A program made the position numbers and the translations under genes. From Gammaproteobacteria bacterium (lineage in GTDB: Bacteria > Pseudomonadota > Gammaproteobacteria > SURF-13), in contig QZKM01000042.1 in the NCBI GenBank assembly GCA_003599485.1, positions 1 to 37,686 on the forward strand: a stretch of DNA of 37,686 nt. Reading direction: 5' to 3'. How positions within the stretch are numbered: position 1 is the first letter of the stretch; each line of letters begins with the position of its first letter. The notes under the pieces are model-generated. The model ran no database searches. It saw only the letters and a program-made list of their open reading frames with translations, and was not told where the DNA came from. Positions 2,960-10,904 of this stretch are shown here, in pieces.

Positions 2960-3412
2960 ATGATAAATTTCCGCGCGTGGATACCGGTATTTTTTCTGGC
3001 GTTTTGCATCAACTCCGCGTTGGCTAAAGATGCAACGCAAGGCGGCGTACAAGCCTTGTCCGCATGGACCAACCAGTCCGGTTCAACACTGTATATCCAG
3101 AGTGTTGATCCCTCCGGCAGCTTGAGTGGTTACTATATCAACCGCGCAGCGGGGTATGGTTGTCAAAACACACCCTATCCCGTCACCGGCTGGGTCTACG
3201 GCACCGCAATCACTTTTACCGTGCTATGGGAAAACGCCACGGAGTCGTGTAATTCAATCACGGCGTGGACCGGCTTTTACTACCAGGGGCAGATAACGAC
3301 CCTTTGGCAGCTGGTTATCAATGGCTCGACAAGCACGGGCCAAATTATCAGCGGCGAGGACATCTTCAAGCCGTCCCAACAGAAAAAATCCAAAACCCTG
3401 AAAGGCAAATAG
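2960..3412 (+). CDS. Secreted avidin-family biotin-binding protein, rhizavidin (dimeric) type
   Basis: A 150-residue preprotein. Residues 1-22 form a signal peptide ending in ALA, so the mature protein is probably periplasmic or secreted. The rest aligns along its whole length with avidin/streptavidin. Biotin-contact positions (streptavidin number in brackets) are N38 (23), S42 (27), Y59 (43), W90 (79), S99 (88), T101 (90), W103 (92), W116 (108) and D134 (128). The position of W120, which in tetramers reaches over from the neighbouring subunit, is T126 here. C68 and C97 sit in the two loops that a disulphide joins in rhizavidin, and the GCQNTPYPVTG and ESCNSITAWTG segments look rhizavidin-like. 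It is therefore most likely a dimeric avidin that binds biotin tightly. The start follows a strong AAAGGAGG. The basic tail (KKSKTLKGK) is unexplained. Its biological role is unknown; biotin sequestration or defence is only inference. Confidence 0.92.
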   Translation: MINFRAWIPVFFLAFCINSALAKDATQGGVQALSAWTNQSGSTLYIQSVDPSGSLSGYYINRAAGYGCQNTPYPVTGWVYGTAITFTVLWENATESCNSITAWTGFYYQGQITTLWQLVINGSTSTGQIISGEDIFKPSQQKKSKTLKGK

Positions 3413-3532: not shown

Positions 3533-3919
3533 ATGCCGAATCCCATCAACGTCAATATTTCCGTTACACAACCGAACGTAACGCTTTACATCATGGTGGA
3601 TACCTTTGCGGCGTATACCCAGCAAGCCACCATCCAGTGTCCCAACCAGCAGACGCTCACTGCCAATGGAAACGGCGAAGGCAAGCGTATCGGCTTCTGG
3701 ACTTATCCAATCTCGACACCGGGTATTTACAGTTTTCAGTGCTTGATCCAGTACAACGACGGCAGCGGCTTCAAACCGAGCCAGGCCGTCGCCAGCGGCG
3801 CGTTCTCCACCCTGTCGCTCAACCAGACGGTGGTATTTTCGGAGGATGCCGGCGACAGCGACATGAATGACTGTTTCGTCACGTTCATGTGGTTCGCCAG
3901 CGGTGTCACGCCAAAATAA
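3533..3919 (+). CDS. LecB/PA-IIL-like calcium-dependent lectin
   Basis: A 128-residue, beta-rich protein with no signal peptide, close in size to the fucose/mannose lectin LecB (PA-IIL) of Pseudomonas, which is about 115 residues. The diagnostic region is residues 103-113, SEDAGDSDMND, which keeps every acidic or amide residue of the LecB calcium loop SEDGTDNDYND (E104, D105, D108, D110, N112, D113); two Ca2+ ions in that loop hold the sugar. The preceding strands (GIYSFQCLIQYNDG and QTVVFSED) match the LecB order. In LecB the C-terminal glycine carboxylate also binds calcium; here the chain continues past the loop to FASGVTPK, so that contact may differ. Three cysteines are present. A strong AAAGGAG precedes the ATG by eight bases. 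Sugar specificity cannot be read from the sequence. The gene lies between the avidin-like and protease genes on the same strand. Confidence 0.78.
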   Translation: MPNPINVNISVTQPNVTLYIMVDTFAAYTQQATIQCPNQQTLTANGNGEGKRIGFWTYPISTPGIYSFQCLIQYNDGSGFKPSQAVASGAFSTLSLNQTVVFSEDAGDSDMNDCFVTFMWFASGVTPK

Positions 3920-3940
3920 CACCCACCCGGAGAAATGCGC

Positions 3941-5635
3941 ATGAAAAACGTCATCCGCCGTATAGCCGCGCTTCTGCTCGGATGCCTTGTTTTCCACGGA
4001 TCGGCCATAGCAGCTCCTCCGCAAGCCCCGGTCACCGTTGATATCTCCGACGGCGTACAGATCGTGCCCGGCAACAAGGCCATACGCGCAACGCTGGAGA
4101 TCAAGGCGGCGACGCCTGTACGCGCAAGGCTGCGCGTTTTTACCACCCCGGTAAACGGTAACCCCGTGGAGGGCGGAATGCTCATCGAGCGCGTGACTGC
4201 GGTCAAGGAGGCCCAAAAGCTCGCTATTGAAATCCCCGTCAAGTCCGCCGGTGATTTCGAACTGAGCGCCATCGTCGAGAAGGAAGAAGGAAGCGTCAGT
4301 GATGGCGCGCTCGGTTATGTGCGTCTCACCGAGGAGGGCGAAGTCAGCCTGATGCTGCCGCAGAAGTATCACGAAATCCGCGGGCGGGAACGCGCGCTGA
4401 CCGAACCGGGCTTTGGCCTCCAACCCCGGCGCGCTCGCCCAGGCTTGGCGCCGCCGCCGTTGCAGCGCGAAGCAGAGCAAGACAAGGCCGGGTCACGACC
4501 GATGGTGGAAGACGCCAAAGAAGTGCATCTTCCAGGCTACAACATCGGCTCCGGGCGGCTAACGCCTGGCGCTCGCCCGCAGGCTATCCCGGGGGCCGCC
4601 AAAAAGCTGCTCATTACGGGGAACGTCAGCACCACGGTCAACGGCGTGGTCGTGCCCATGGCCAACACGTCGCTCGAGATTTGGGACAGCGACAGCTTCA
4701 GCCCCGATGATCTGCTCGGCACGACCGAAACCGACGCCAGCGGCAACTACTCCATTACCGTGGACAACGATGATGGACCGTTCGGCGGCGGCGTGGACGT
4801 CTATCTTTACGAGACCTCGCGCCGCCCGGGAAAGATCGCAGTGCTGCAACTCATCCCCGACGGCCAGGGCGGCTATTTCCCTTTCTACTATGCCTGGCGC
4901 TCACCCACCCGGGACGACATCACCGCGCCCAGCGTAGCCATCAACTTCAGCATCACCGATAACGCGCGCGCCGCCGCCGTGTGGATGGGCGCCAGCCGCG
5001 CCTGGTGGCTGTCGGAGAATCAAAGCGGCCACAAGCTGAGTTACGTTGAGGTCAGATTTCCCGGCTTTACCTCCGGCACCTACTACAGGGGCGGCATCAT
5101 CAATATAGACTCCCAATACGGCGACTCACCGGAGACCGTGGGGCATGAGTACGGCCACGCCGTGATGGACCAGGCCTACGGCGGCGTTCCCGGCGAGGGC
5201 GGCGTACACTTCATGTGCGCTGCCGCCTCCGCGGGTCTGGCATGGAGCGAGGGGTTCGCCACGGCCCTCGGACTTGTGGTGGGCAATGGCAATGGCATAG
5301 ACCATTGGAACGTCGGAGACACGGGGCTCAGCATCGAGAATTGGTCATGTAACCTGCGCGACATGTCCACCGACGAGGGGCGCGTGGCGGCCGGTTTGTG
5401 GGATCTGTACGACACCGCCAATGATAACAACGGTGGCAGCGCCGACCGCGGCGTCGCGGGCCACTCCGATGCCAACCAGGGCGCGCAACTGGTCACGCTC
5501 GCGCAGATTCTGCAAACCCTGTGGGTGAGCAAACAGAACGATACCACGGCCTACTGGAGCGCGTTACGGCCCAGGCTTAACGCCAACCAAACCGCCACCA
5601 GCGACGACATCATGACCTATAACTACTACAAGTAA
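3941..5635 (+). CDS. Secreted zinc metallopeptidase (HExxH...E) with a carboxypeptidase-regulatory-like domain
   Basis: A 564-residue exported protein. Residues 1-25 are a signal peptide (basic start, hydrophobic core, SAIAA). A beta-rich region (about 30-150) is followed by a proline/arginine-rich linker (about 155-225) and a transthyretin-like domain with LEIWDSDSF and TDASGNYSITVD (about 225-300). The peptidase domain then has H402-E403-Y-G-H406 and a downstream glutamate in WSEGFA (E437), the pattern of clan MA(E) zinc enzymes in which two His and one Glu bind zinc and the HExxH Glu is catalytic. The ATG at 3941 is preferred over 3935 because CGGAG lies eight bases upstream of it and only two from the other. 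An LLGC sequence lies inside the leader but is a poor lipobox. It is not assignable to a named peptidase family by eye. It follows the lectin gene by 21 bases. Confidence 0.85.
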   Translation: MKNVIRRIAALLLGCLVFHGSAIAAPPQAPVTVDISDGVQIVPGNKAIRATLEIKAATPVRARLRVFTTPVNGNPVEGGMLIERVTAVKEAQKLAIEIPVKSAGDFELSAIVEKEEGSVSDGALGYVRLTEEGEVSLMLPQKYHEIRGRERALTEPGFGLQPRRARPGLAPPPLQREAEQDKAGSRPMVEDAKEVHLPGYNIGSGRLTPGARPQAIPGAAKKLLITGNVSTTVNGVVVPMANTSLEIWDSDSFSPDDLLGTTETDASGNYSITVDNDDGPFGGGVDVYLYETSRRPGKIAVLQLIPDGQGGYFPFYYAWRSPTRDDITAPSVAINFSITDNARAAAVWMGASRAWWLSENQSGHKLSYVEVRFPGFTSGTYYRGGIINIDSQYGDSPETVGHEYGHAVMDQAYGGVPGEGGVHFMCAAASAGLAWSEGFATALGLVVGNGNGIDHWNVGDTGLSIENWSCNLRDMSTDEGRVAAGLWDLYDTANDNNGGSADRGVAGHSDANQGAQLVTLAQILQTLWVSKQNDTTAYWSALRPRLNANQTATSDDIMTYNYYK

Positions 5636-5678: not shown

Positions 5679-5894
5679 ATGAAGCAAGAGTCCAGTGCGC
5701 TATCGCTGGCCGGCAGAGTGCTCATCATCGCAACGGTGCTGGGTGCGGTATTGCTTGCGCTGTTCAAATGGCTGTACCCGCAGGTGGAGATCGGCGAAGC
5801 TCTGTCGTTGATCGCACTGCTTTCCCTGCTGGCGGCGGTGGCGCTCAGCGCCTCCTGGATGCGCCGGAAAAGACGCAAGGAGGGGGCGGAATGA
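5679..5894 (+). CDS. Small two-helix inner-membrane protein
   Basis: A 71-residue protein with two hydrophobic segments (about 11-30 and 42-60), a short loop containing acidic residues, and a strongly basic end (RRKRRKEGAE), which places the C-terminus in the cytoplasm by the positive-inside rule. AAGGAG lies seven bases before the ATG. The stop overlaps the start of the next gene (ATGA), so the two are translationally coupled. I do not recognise a family. Its size and its place before a lipoprotein and a phospholipase-like gene would suit an immunity, holin-like or export-accessory role, but nothing in the sequence proves this. Confidence 0.7.
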   Translation: MKQESSALSLAGRVLIIATVLGAVLLALFKWLYPQVEIGEALSLIALLSLLAAVALSASWMRRKRRKEGAE

Positions 5895-6700
5895 AATTGG
5901 CCGCGCTGCGCCTGTTGCTGGCGACAGTGTGCGTCAGCGTTTTTATTGGCGCCTGCAAGCCTCCATCGCAAGAGGCAAAGCAGGCGCCCATCGTGGACAA
6001 AAACGGCGGCGCCGAAACGGAGCCGCCGCCCGCGATGGCAAACGGACACGAGCCGCCGCAAATACGTCATCACGCCTACGACCTGTTGCTACAGATTGAC
6101 GGCGAGCGCCCCGGTTATGGCCTGTACACCTATGTGCTGTTCGGGCGCAAGGTGGGCGCAGATGCCCCATCCCTGCCGCACGACGTTGCGCAACGCTATC
6201 AGGCCCTGCTGGAGGCCATCGAGTCCTCAACCAGCACCGCCGGCGATCTGGAAGCGGCGCTCATTCCCAAAGAGGAAACCAATCTGTTCAACATCCCCGC
6301 CAAATCCGCCGATGCGCGCCCGGCCCTGGACAGCTATCACTCCGGACTGGCCCTGACCTATCGCAGCCTGGCGCTGGGCGCCCTCAGAGGGCATGACAAG
6401 TTTGGACGCCTGCTATCAGGCGGCGCCGGCCCGTTTCTGATTTCCACCCTGCGGCCGCTGAATCAGGTCAGGAGTCCGGAGCCGCTGCTGTTCGCCGACC
6501 TCTCTGTGCATAACCCCGCCGCCATGCGCGAGCTGGTGGCCGCCTACAAGCAGCGCATCAACCGCAGCGCACCCGGCAAACTGGAGTTGTTCGAGCCGCT
6601 GCGCCTTGCCCTGCTCACATTGATTCTGGATGCCAACGACCATGTAACGCTCATCAAGGACGCCGTAGCGGATTGGCGCGACACGCTTCCCGATCAATAG
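5891..6700 (+). CDS. Lipoprotein of unknown function, upstream of the Tle1-like gene
   Basis: A 269-residue lipoprotein precursor. The N-terminus MKLAALRLLL is followed by a hydrophobic core and the lipobox FIGAC, with the lipidated cysteine at residue 22; the next residues KPP do not include an Asp at +2, so outer-membrane sorting is expected. A proline-rich linker (about 45-60) leads to a folded domain beginning HHAYDLLLQIDGERPGYGLY, which I cannot assign. The start at 5891 uses an ATGA overlap with the preceding stop and has AAGGAGG upstream, although the frame stays open further upstream. Tle1-type effectors often sit next to periplasmic lipoprotein immunity proteins, so an immunity role is possible, but I see no direct sequence evidence. 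Confidence 0.75.
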   Translation: MKLAALRLLLATVCVSVFIGACKPPSQEAKQAPIVDKNGGAETEPPPAMANGHEPPQIRHHAYDLLLQIDGERPGYGLYTYVLFGRKVGADAPSLPHDVAQRYQALLEAIESSTSTAGDLEAALIPKEETNLFNIPAKSADARPALDSYHSGLALTYRSLALGALRGHDKFGRLLSGGAGPFLISTLRPLNQVRSPEPLLFADLSVHNPAAMRELVAAYKQRINRSAPGKLELFEPLRLALLTLILDANDHVTLIKDAVADWRDTLPDQ

Positions 6701-6743
6701 CCGCAGAGTGGTTTTTAATCCCCATCCGTCAAGGAGCCCGCTC

Positions 6744-7864
6744 ATGGAAAATACGCAAGAATATATTCAGGATTTCTCACGCCCCCAGGGAGCGCAACGT
6801 TATCATCTGCATGGATGGCACCTGGAATGACGAGACCGGCAAGGACGGCGACAGTGTCGTTACCAACATTGCCAAATTGTACAAATCCCTCGACGTTGAC
6901 TCCGAAATGCAAATATCCAGATACTTCAGAGGCGTCGGCAGCGATGAGGAGAGTACGCGCATGGAGACCTGGATCGGCGGCGCCACGGGCAAAAATGAGA
7001 AGCGAATCCGCGATAACGCCTATTCGACCATCGCTAAGGAATACCGGAACGGCGATCGCATTTTCATATTCGGCTTCAGCCGGGGCGCCGCCAGCGCGCG
7101 CATGCTGGCGAGCCAACTGCACAAGGAGGGTATTCCTCATGAAGATCACGGTTACCACGGCGCCCCGGGAAAATCACGTAACAAAACATATCGAAAACTG
7201 GTTCGTGAGTTATAAGCCGGAAGGCGAGAGGCGGCCGGTGGACGTCACCTTCCTCGGCGTGTGGGATACCGTCTACGCCTTCGGTATCCCCATGAAGATT
7301 GCAGGCATCCCGTTTTACCGCTGGGACTTGTTCAAGGACAAACACGTGTCGCCCAACATCAGAAAGGCCCTGCACCTCGTCAGCATTGATGAAACGCGCA
7401 CACCGTTCGAGCCGACCCTGATGAACTACAATCCCGGCGTGGTGGAGGAGGTATGGTTCCCGGGCGTGCATGCGGACGTGGGCGGAGGCTACGCCGAAGA
7501 CGAGTTGGGCAGAATCTCATTCAACTATATGGTGGACAAGCTCAATGAGTACACCGGTAAACAAGGCTTGCCACCGGTGAGGTTTCATGAGGCGACACTG
7601 AAGGGCTATCTGGAACTGCGGGAAGCCGATTACCAGTTCCATTTTCACGGCCTGGGATACAAGAAAGGAATGCGTACCATTCACATTCTGGAAGACGACA
7701 AACCCTGCGCGCGCCTTCCCCGGATTCATGAATCGGTGTTCGCCTTGCAGCAAAGCGCGGCCACTTACAGTGTGGTGGAGGAACGCAAGGGCATGAAGAA
7801 GTACCGCATCCAGTACAACCCACCCAATCTCAAGGCGCTGCAGGGCAAGTATGAGGCGGCTTGA
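6744..7864 (+). pseudogene. DUF2235/Tle1-like phospholipase, broken by two single-base frameshifts
   Basis: Translation from the ATG at 6744 (AAGGAG eight bases upstream) runs MENTQEYIQDFSRP and hits a stop after 28 codons. Removing one C from the C5 run at 6782-6786 joins it to a second frame containing NVIICMDGTWND, the classic DUF2235 start, and the nucleophile elbow GFSRGAAS (GxSxG). That frame ends at 7215; a second one-base shift between about 7120 and 7170 leads to the third frame with VTFLGVWDTV and WFPGVHADVGGGY, which supplies the catalytic His region. With both shifts corrected the product would have 372 residues, a complete alpha/beta-hydrolase domain. Relatives include type VI secretion phospholipase effectors (Tle1). 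An AAGGAGG at 7123-7129 precedes an in-frame ATG at 7139, so the C-terminal part could be translated alone. No secretion-system genes are nearby. Confidence 0.85.
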
Positions 7865-7901
7865 TTGTCTATAACGCGGTTTAAATGAAAAGGAGATACA
7901 C

Positions 7902-8357
7902 ATGCAAAAGACGAGACAGGTGAGCAAGGCAAAATCCCAGACCAACCGGCTTGAACAAAAGCTCAAATCATTCGGGAAGAAATGGGAAAAGGTAATGGCG
8001 GCGAGTGTCACAAATGCCGTGACTCATATGAAGCTGGCTCAAGAACTCTATGACCTTGCTCTTAAAACCGAGGGTGCCGAGCTTAAAATCGTGGAGCACA
8101 GGCTGGACAAGCCAAAAGCCAAGCCGACGATCACTCGATACAAACTCACCAATCCCCGGGCTGCATTACATACAATGCTCCGGTTTTGCAATGTCTGGAT
8201 TCCGATGGGCCAATGGGTATGCCTGAACCGCGGGTGTCCCGCGTGGAATCCGCCGGGCGCACCCGCGGGTAAATTTTGTTTTCTCATCGGGTGCTTGATC
8301 AATATCTGCCCCACACCGGGTGCTGCTAAAACGCGATGTGTTTATCTTTGCATCTAA
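7902..8357 (+). CDS. Hypothetical protein with a basic helical N-terminus and a cysteine-rich tail
   Basis: A 151-residue protein of unknown function. The first 55 residues are lysine-rich and probably helical (QTNRLEQKLKSFGKKWEK). The last 56 residues contain eight cysteines (96, 107, 112, 126, 131, 136, 146, 150) within a hydrophobic, Pro/Gly-rich stretch. There is no signal peptide. The start is well supported by AAAAGGAG five to eight bases upstream. It follows the Tle1-like gene by 37 bases and probably shares its transcript. The change in composition between the two halves could mean a metal-binding or palmitoylation-like region, or a frameshifted C-terminus; the latter cannot be excluded because the neighbouring genes are frameshifted. 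Confidence 0.55.
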   Translation: MQKTRQVSKAKSQTNRLEQKLKSFGKKWEKVMAASVTNAVTHMKLAQELYDLALKTEGAELKIVEHRLDKPKAKPTITRYKLTNPRAALHTMLRFCNVWIPMGQWVCLNRGCPAWNPPGAPAGKFCFLIGCLINICPTPGAAKTRCVYLCI

Positions 8358-9065: not shown

Positions 9066-9449
9066 TCAGTAGCGCCGCTGCCGCGCAACGATGATCTCAA
9101 CCCGCCCGCGCGGGCCGATGAAGTACGACGCGAGCCAGCCGGTTATGCTCACGACAATCGCCCCGAACAGCGCCGCCCAGAAACCGGTGATGGTGAAGTT
9201 GTCAAACGCCCACGCCACCAGCCCCAGCATCGCCGCGTTGATTACCAGCAAAAACAATCCAAGCGTAAAAATGGCGGCAGGCAGCGTGAGGATAATCAGC
9301 ACCGGTCGCACCACTGCGTTGACAACGCCAAGCAACAACGCCGCCCCAAGCAACGTCCCCACGCCTGTCACTTGAATGCCCGGTACCAGCTCCGACGCCA
9401 GCCACAATCCAAGCGCGACAATCAGCAGACGTAATATGAACCCGGCCAT
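9066..9449 (-). CDS. YvlD/phage-holin-IV-like four-helix membrane protein
   Basis: A 127-residue integral membrane protein with four hydrophobic helices and the conserved pattern of the YvlD family (COG1950): N-terminal RLLIVALGLWLASELVPGI, then GVVNAVVRPVLIILTLPAAIFTLGLF, in which the NAxxRPxL and TLGLF motifs are typical. The family is annotated as phage-holin-like, but members are chromosomal and their function is not settled (membrane stress in Bacillus). It starts eight bases after the vsr stop, so it may be transcribed with vsr, although its function does not obviously connect with restriction-modification. Confidence 0.85.
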   Translation of the reverse strand: MAGFILRLLIVALGLWLASELVPGIQVTGVGTLLGAALLLGVVNAVVRPVLIILTLPAAIFTLGLFLLVINAAMLGLVAWAFDNFTITGFWAALFGAIVVSITGWLASYFIGPRGRVEIIVARQRRY

Positions 9450-9456
9450 GAGGTTA

Positions 9457-9897
9457 TCACTCTATTTGATTCAATTTAAGAAAGCGGGAAAGCTTCCTTG
9501 TGATCTTCCTTTTATCATTTAGGTCACACTCCCAAAGAATTAGCACACGCCAGCCAGAAGACCTAAGAGCTTCTTGATGCACAGCGTCTCGCTGGCGGTT
9601 TTTCTCAATCTTTGTTTGCCAGTAGGTACGATGAATTTTGGGTATTCTGGCCCCGCGTGGGCAGTTATGTCCATGCCAGAAGCAACCGTGGATAAAAAGT
9701 GCGAGCTTGCGCCCTATCCAGGTGATATCAGGTTTACCAGGGATGTCAGTTCGGTGAAGTCGGTATCCCCGCTGGTCTATGCTCTGTAAAAAGCGCCGAA
9801 TGGCAAGCTCGATCGAGGTGTCCTTGCCCTTCACACGCCGCATCGCAGCGCTTCGCTGCTCAGGGGTTAGATTGTCGGCCAAGGGATTCAGCTTCAA
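9457..9897 (-). CDS. vsr: Very short patch repair endonuclease Vsr
   Basis: A 146-residue endonuclease that nicks 5' of the T in T:G mismatches made by deamination of 5-methylcytosine, and so protects sites methylated by a partner cytosine methyltransferase. The LTPEQRSAAMRRVKGKDT start, PGKPDITWIGRKLALFIHGCFWHGH core and GWRVLILWECDL end are all typical. Catalytic residues correspond to D57, H70 and H75, with the same spacing as D51/H64/H69 of E. coli Vsr. The start is a TTG (9897-9895) that overlaps the stop of the preceding gene as TTGA, so translation is coupled to it. The protein looks intact although both genes upstream of it in the operon are damaged. Confidence 0.95.
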   Translation of the reverse strand: MKLNPLADNLTPEQRSAAMRRVKGKDTSIELAIRRFLQSIDQRGYRLHRTDIPGKPDITWIGRKLALFIHGCFWHGHNCPRGARIPKIHRTYWQTKIEKNRQRDAVHQEALRSSGWRVLILWECDLNDKRKITRKLSRFLKLNQIE

Positions 9898-10504
9898 CCA
9901 AAGTCAATGCGCAAGCTCGCGTCGGATTCATGGTTGAAGATGATCTCATTGTATTTCTCGGCAAGCTTCTCGATGGTGATCTTGCGTTGCTCGCCCTTGA
10001 GCAGGCTCATTTTATAGAGGTTGGCGGTCAAGAACCGCAAAGCATCCATGATCTCGACGCGATCATCAATGCCAAGGCTCTCGGCAGCCCCTTCGGCTGC
10101 TCCGATCGTAATTTTTTCGAGCTATCTACCTGTAATTCATGGTAGTGACGCAACAACTGAAGCAACCCCTGAAAGGCATAAGTTTGCCTGGCTGAATTTG
10201 CGAAACAAAACAGCGGTACAGGCTTTTCATATTGTTCAGTAATTCGTTTGTTTCGCCCAGTTAATGATTGATTTCCAGACCGTCCCTGCCCGGTATATGT
10301 CAATACATCCCCTTCAATTCGATCATGATAAGGATTATCTGCAATATTCTTATATTGGCCATTGAGTTTAGTCATTATGGCAATGTGTCTCACGTCCTTA
10401 TTTTTATCTACGGCGGGTCGAATTCCTCCTAGATTCTCAACGGAGAGCGACACACTGATTTGATCGTTGGTGTAGTTTTGGCCAACAACAAATTCAGTAA
10501 GCAT
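9894..10504 (-). pseudogene. SRA-like restriction-associated protein, frameshifted
   Basis: The ATG at 10504 overlaps the stop of the methyltransferase remnant (ATGCTTACTGA). The first 130 or so residues include FVVGQNYTNDQI, DVLTYTGQGRSGNQSL and NKRITEQYEKPVPLFCFA; this F-x-G-x-Y ... YTGxGxxG ... N-x-x-I pattern resembles the SRA/YDG-like N-terminal domain found in several restriction endonucleases. The frame is lost at an A6 run (10112-10117). Adding one A restores a continuous reading of 203 residues ending ...SLRIDFG, whose stop overlaps the TTG start of vsr. That perfect junction argues that the corrected frame is the original one. No HNH or PD-(D/E)XK nuclease motif is seen, so the cleavage part may be atypical, lost or absent. 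Position between methyltransferase and vsr supports a restriction role. Confidence 0.65.
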
Positions 10505-10904
10505 ATGAATGGATACTCTTGGGGAGGTCGGCAAGAGAAATATCTTGGCAAGGAAAAGATGCCCACGCCAACGGTGCATACGGCAGGTCTTGGCCTTTTA
10601 CATTGGTAATCGAGCCAAGGTGAAAATGGTTGGCGTTGTGGTTGGCAGAGTACACAGCAGCCTTTTTCGCGCAGATGTCGTTGGCCCAGACGGGCTTAAA
10701 GACATCTTTGAGACCCTCGGCGACCAGACCGCTTCCGGCGAAAAACTCCAAAAAAGCAGGTTGGGTGCTCTTGAGGCCAGCCCCTGGTTTCGTTGAGTAA
10801 ACTATCTCTCCCAAGCCCAATCTTGGCGTATAAGGCGTTTGATGACCAAGAGAGTACTCCATAGATTGAGATTCTATATATGATGTTGATCGAAGTGCAA
10901 TCAC
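10494..10904 (-). pseudogene. DNA (cytosine-5)-methyltransferase, truncated by internal deletion
   Basis: A 136-residue remnant of an enzyme that normally has 330 or more. It has the SAM-binding motif I (FLEFFAGSGLVAEGL), the following acidic region (VWANDICAKKAAVYSANH) and motif IV with the catalytic Pro-Cys (WASFPCQDISLA). Directly after SLA, where the family continues with G and the long motif VI-X region, the frame reads DLPKSIHSYAY and stops. Motifs VI, VIII, IX (with the target-recognition domain) and X are absent, so it cannot methylate DNA. The last 11 residues could be the original C-terminus joined by an in-frame deletion. The start is uncertain: ATG at 10904 or at 10862. A linked vsr indicates that the complete enzyme once made 5-methylcytosine. 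Confidence 0.82.

Follow-up and report, generated by a model that had tools for sequence, protein, structure and literature searches.

The window analysed here, a 37,686-nucleotide stretch of a gammaproteobacterial assembly (GCA_003599485.1, contig QZKM01000042.1, forward strand), contains a 150-residue ORF at 2960-3412 on the forward strand, with an ATG start, a TAG stop and the Shine-Dalgarno sequence AAAGGAGG upstream of the ATG, a good ribosome-binding site. Its product matches the Pfam Avidin family (PF01382) over residues 34-136 (E 1.2e-16; 61.6 bits, with the cut-off at 24), and an earlier note, made from the sequence alone, had placed an avidin at exactly this position. The avidin gene has hemW (1103-2728; NCBIfam HemW) on one side and a small conserved gene on the reverse strand (9066-9449) on the other. 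With a PA-IIL-like lectin gene and an HExxH metalloprotease-like gene on its own strand it makes up a stretch of about 3 kb. The features of this stretch are as follows.

2960..3412, + strand: wilavidin gene (almost certain assignment), with a signal peptide (about residues 1-22), an avidin barrel (about 30-137) and a lysine-rich tail (about 138-150); PF01382 match; mature part 129/129 identical to PDB 7ouq
2960..3025, + strand: predicted signal peptide MINFRAWIPVFFLAFCINSALA, from direct reading of the sequence; the PDB construct opens with an added Met followed by A22
3161..3163, + strand: Cys68, in loop L3,4; rhizavidin and shwanavidin have a loop cysteine at the aligned position
3248..3250, + strand: Cys97, in loop L5,6; rhizavidin and shwanavidin have their second loop cysteine at the aligned position
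3371..3409, + strand: lysine-rich C-terminal tail (PSQQKKSKTLKGK), present in the solved 130-residue construct and cut in 7p8y except for two residues
3430..3472, + strand: hairpin 3' of the avidin gene (-27.8 kcal/mol); its stem has 19 pairs and one bulge, and no T run follows
3533..3919, + strand: PA-IIL (LecB)-like lectin; PF07472 E 1.6e-4, barely above the cut-off; in the PDB, PA-IIL matches weakly (E 0.005); SED..D.D.ND motif kept
3935..5635, + strand: HExxH metalloprotease-like protein of 566 aa, probably secreted; zinc-protease-like motif HEYGH read from the translation; TTR-like domain PF01060 (E 2e-5)

The hairpin is not convincing as an intrinsic terminator by a terminator scan. The lectin retains the calcium-site motif SEDAGDSDMND, its overall similarity to PA-IIL is weak, and it has additional residues past the position at which PA-IIL ends.

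A phmmer search of the PDB gave as its best match chain A of 7ouq, 'wilavidin' (E 2.1e-84). From residue 22 to residue 150, which correspond to construct residues 2-130 of 7ouq, the window protein is identical at 129 of 129 positions, tail included, the construct opening with Met where the window protein has L21; the short wilavidin of 7p8y is also identical and lacks the last 11 residues. We therefore regard it as almost certain from the sequence that the gene encodes wilavidin, a predicted secreted protein of the rhizavidin/shwanavidin branch of avidins, and we counted no evidence against this identity. The entries 7ouq ('wilavidin biotin complex'), 7our ('Wilavidin apo form (P1 form)') and 7p8y ('Short wilavidin apo form') share the release date 2021-11-17, and the short form has also been deposited as 7p8z. 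Judged by this identity, the protein is not new: wilavidin has been studied before, both in complex with biotin and with its lysine-rich tail, so that its description in the earlier note as a new member of the dimeric avidins falls. By its identity to the protein of the 7ouq complex, and on that ground only, the window protein is a biotin binder.

The barrel carries the expected pocket. In an alignment with streptavidin, using a reference that agrees with PDB 1mk5 over its full length, all nine biotin contacts (N23, S27, Y43, W79, S88, T90, W92, W108 and D128) have aligned counterparts, at N38, S42, Y59, W90, S99, T101, W103, W116 and D134. All 12 residues that the earlier note had named are present with the numbering it used, and in the alignment with rhizavidin and shwanavidin that it had suggested as a check the pocket residues match, as do the loop cysteines, which it had rightly taken to be retained. 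The absence of the tryptophan that bridges subunits in tetramers also holds, since no Trp occurs after W116. Streptavidin W120 aligns not with T126 itself but with a two-residue deletion; whether T126 can be said to replace the Trp is thus a matter of alignment, whereas the absence of the bridging Trp is not.

The oligomeric state requires somewhat more caution. The earlier note had favoured a strictly dimeric, rhizavidin-type avidin, undescribed before, and both the retention of the loop cysteines in a protein without the bridging Trp and the presence of rhizavidin and shwanavidin among the closest solved structures argue for it; yet the novelty is refuted by the identity to solved wilavidin, and Avraham, Bayer and Livnah reportedly described wilavidin in the FEBS Journal as forming biotin-binding hexamers, leaving the strictly dimeric, new protein a reading that we hardly credit. 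The monomer and its loop cysteines are of the rhizavidin type, while we doubt, and do not regard as secured, that wilavidin ends up as a plain dimer; 'dimeric' is better taken to mean 'of the dimeric branch'. Four sequences gave a poor AlphaFold2 model (mean pLDDT 49), which the crystal structure makes superfluous; from its Foldseek matches we took no more than the titles and dates of the entries and the letters and lengths of their chains. In 7our (P1 cell) the chains are lettered up to F, and apo shwanavidin, a dimer, likewise has chains A to F in its P1 form, so the lettering decides neither for nor against a hexamer. In chains of the full-length construct 117-121 of 130 residues are modelled, and the approximately 10 absent from the models are probably mostly those of the tail. 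Shwanavidin has been described as dimeric, and the disulfide has been described in dimeric avidins (PMC5398887).

Close homologues were found in genome contigs by a scan with short exact peptide patterns, which is not exhaustive: MAGs of the Sulfuricellaceae (L002; 70% identity), Candidatus Thiodiazotropha (L003; 69%) and the Pseudomonadales (L004; 69%). As the nearest homologues include, by title, two MAGs of Gammaproteobacteria and one of Sulfuricellaceae, the gammaproteobacterial origin that the earlier note had guessed was a reasonable one. The cysteines and the pocket are kept in all three, and so is a charged C-terminal end, with K145, L147 and K150 conserved in each; the lysine-rich tail, which had been singled out as unusual and which belongs to the wilavidin construct, is thus a trait of a small clade and not a peculiarity of the window. 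Homologues on Rhizobium plasmids are 47% identical. A fourth contig match, in Ruminiclostridium (L005), is 38% identical over just 37 residues and was not counted as an avidin, and viral contigs gave no relative. When 369 genomes of the class were scanned with the alignment of the four sequences, the only matches were in the window's own genome and, marginally, in one other (G186; E 5.6e-4). Among 95 genomes, PF01382 and PF07472 were matched in the window's genome alone, five relatives from the family and the rest of the 95 having yielded no avidin.

Comparison with related genomes shows that the locus is variable. In a genome of the same genus (L019), the hemW protein of which is 84% identical, the hemW match stops at position 7796 and the next aligned block, corresponding to window 9080-9457, starts at 7784; all of the window from the avidin gene to 9 kb is missing there. 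A second genome of the family (G005) has the same arrangement. A third (G004) lacks the avidin-lectin-protease stretch and partly retains 5685-8356 (a 310-aa protein and the ORF at 7902), with most of the Tle1-like gene missing. The avidin (GC 0.519) and lectin (0.540) genes are AT-richer than the window (0.605) and the metalloprotease-like gene (0.627) is not. An island-like insertion, acquired at a variable spot and perhaps in more than one step, fits these observations. The contig of the Sulfuricellaceae homologue (L002) stops 35 bases 3' of the avidin gene and is uninformative on the downstream side.

Several other features of this region were noted. The Tle1-like (DUF2235) phospholipase gene, of a type associated with T6SS, occupies window 6673-7864 (+) and is split over overlapping frames (6673-7215 and 6815-7864), from which we take it to be frameshifted or to contain a sequencing error. 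Next to the insertion spot, at 9457-9897 (-) and 10028-10904 (-), are a Vsr mismatch endonuclease, a restriction fragment that is AspBHI-like but below the cut-off, and a short segment resembling a cytosine methyltransferase N-terminus, possibly a decayed restriction-modification locus. In L019 an identical 264-aa ORF occurs twice between recQ and hemW (4649-5443 and 6375-7169), with the ends of the adjacent genes duplicated, which is either a tandem duplication or an assembly artefact.

The avidin, lectin and metalloprotease-like genes could together encode one secreted module directed at other cells, combining biotin withholding, glycan binding and proteolysis. Their adjacency on one strand, in a stretch that is missing from the same-genus genome, is in keeping with this, as is the finding of no lectin homologue in the other family genomes searched and no metalloprotease-like homologue in the five other genomes of the family. 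However, two relatives with 69% identical avidins (L003 and L004) have neither a lectin nor a metalloprotease-like neighbour in the stretch read, their avidin genes lying beside other genes, the strong hairpin separates avidin from lectin, the lectin has no visible signal peptide, and the GC content of the metalloprotease-like gene is unlike that of the other two. We consider such a module unlikely, and its fuller form, in which the three genes would have been horizontally acquired and jointly deployed for export to attack or deter cells, slightly less likely again. That the lectin and protease-like neighbours join in the role of the avidin is possible, although the neighbourhoods in L003 and L004 do not support it; were the joint module true, wilavidin would gain a defined set of ecological partners.

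Wilavidin by itself would be exported and its signal peptide then cleaved, the beta-barrel holding biotin in a single-subunit pocket capped by the L3,4 loop, which may be held by a Cys68-Cys97 disulfide instead of the Trp of a neighbouring subunit. The dimer would serve as a building block that probably assembles further, reportedly to a hexamer, and the secreted protein would then most likely withhold biotin from competitors or grazers. The host genome has bioA, bioB and bioF, each above its curated cut-off in a search of these three gene families, and the host probably makes its own biotin; withholding biotin from others is thus the simplest role for a secreted avidin here. Competition between microbes and anti-grazer roles have been proposed for bacterial avidins in general (PMC8033661). 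We see about an even chance that wilavidin acts as an exported biotin scavenger against competitors or grazers, a role that it would have in common with other bacterial avidins.

As a discovery the locus brings little, the protein having been named and solved already. The only new part is the genome context, which the crystal structures lack: an island-like insertion with lectin-like and protease-like neighbours, in a host that carries three core genes of biotin synthesis, bears on the purpose of bacterial avidins.

After wilavidin, the phmmer ranking of PDB entries continues with shwanavidin (E 1e-44), rhizavidin (E 1.3e-28) and afifavidin (E 1.1e-27). Rhizavidin (3ew1, 3ew2), named as the dimeric prototype, has the pocket residues and cysteines of the window protein and is the more distant relative. 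Shwanavidin (3szh, 3szj) has in common with it the pocket residues, both loop cysteines and the missing bridging Trp, but differs in four additional residues between strands 6 and 7 and in a solved 122-residue chain without the lysine-rich tail. Beyond wilavidin as solved in its four entries, the window contributes the protein's native signal peptide and its genome context.
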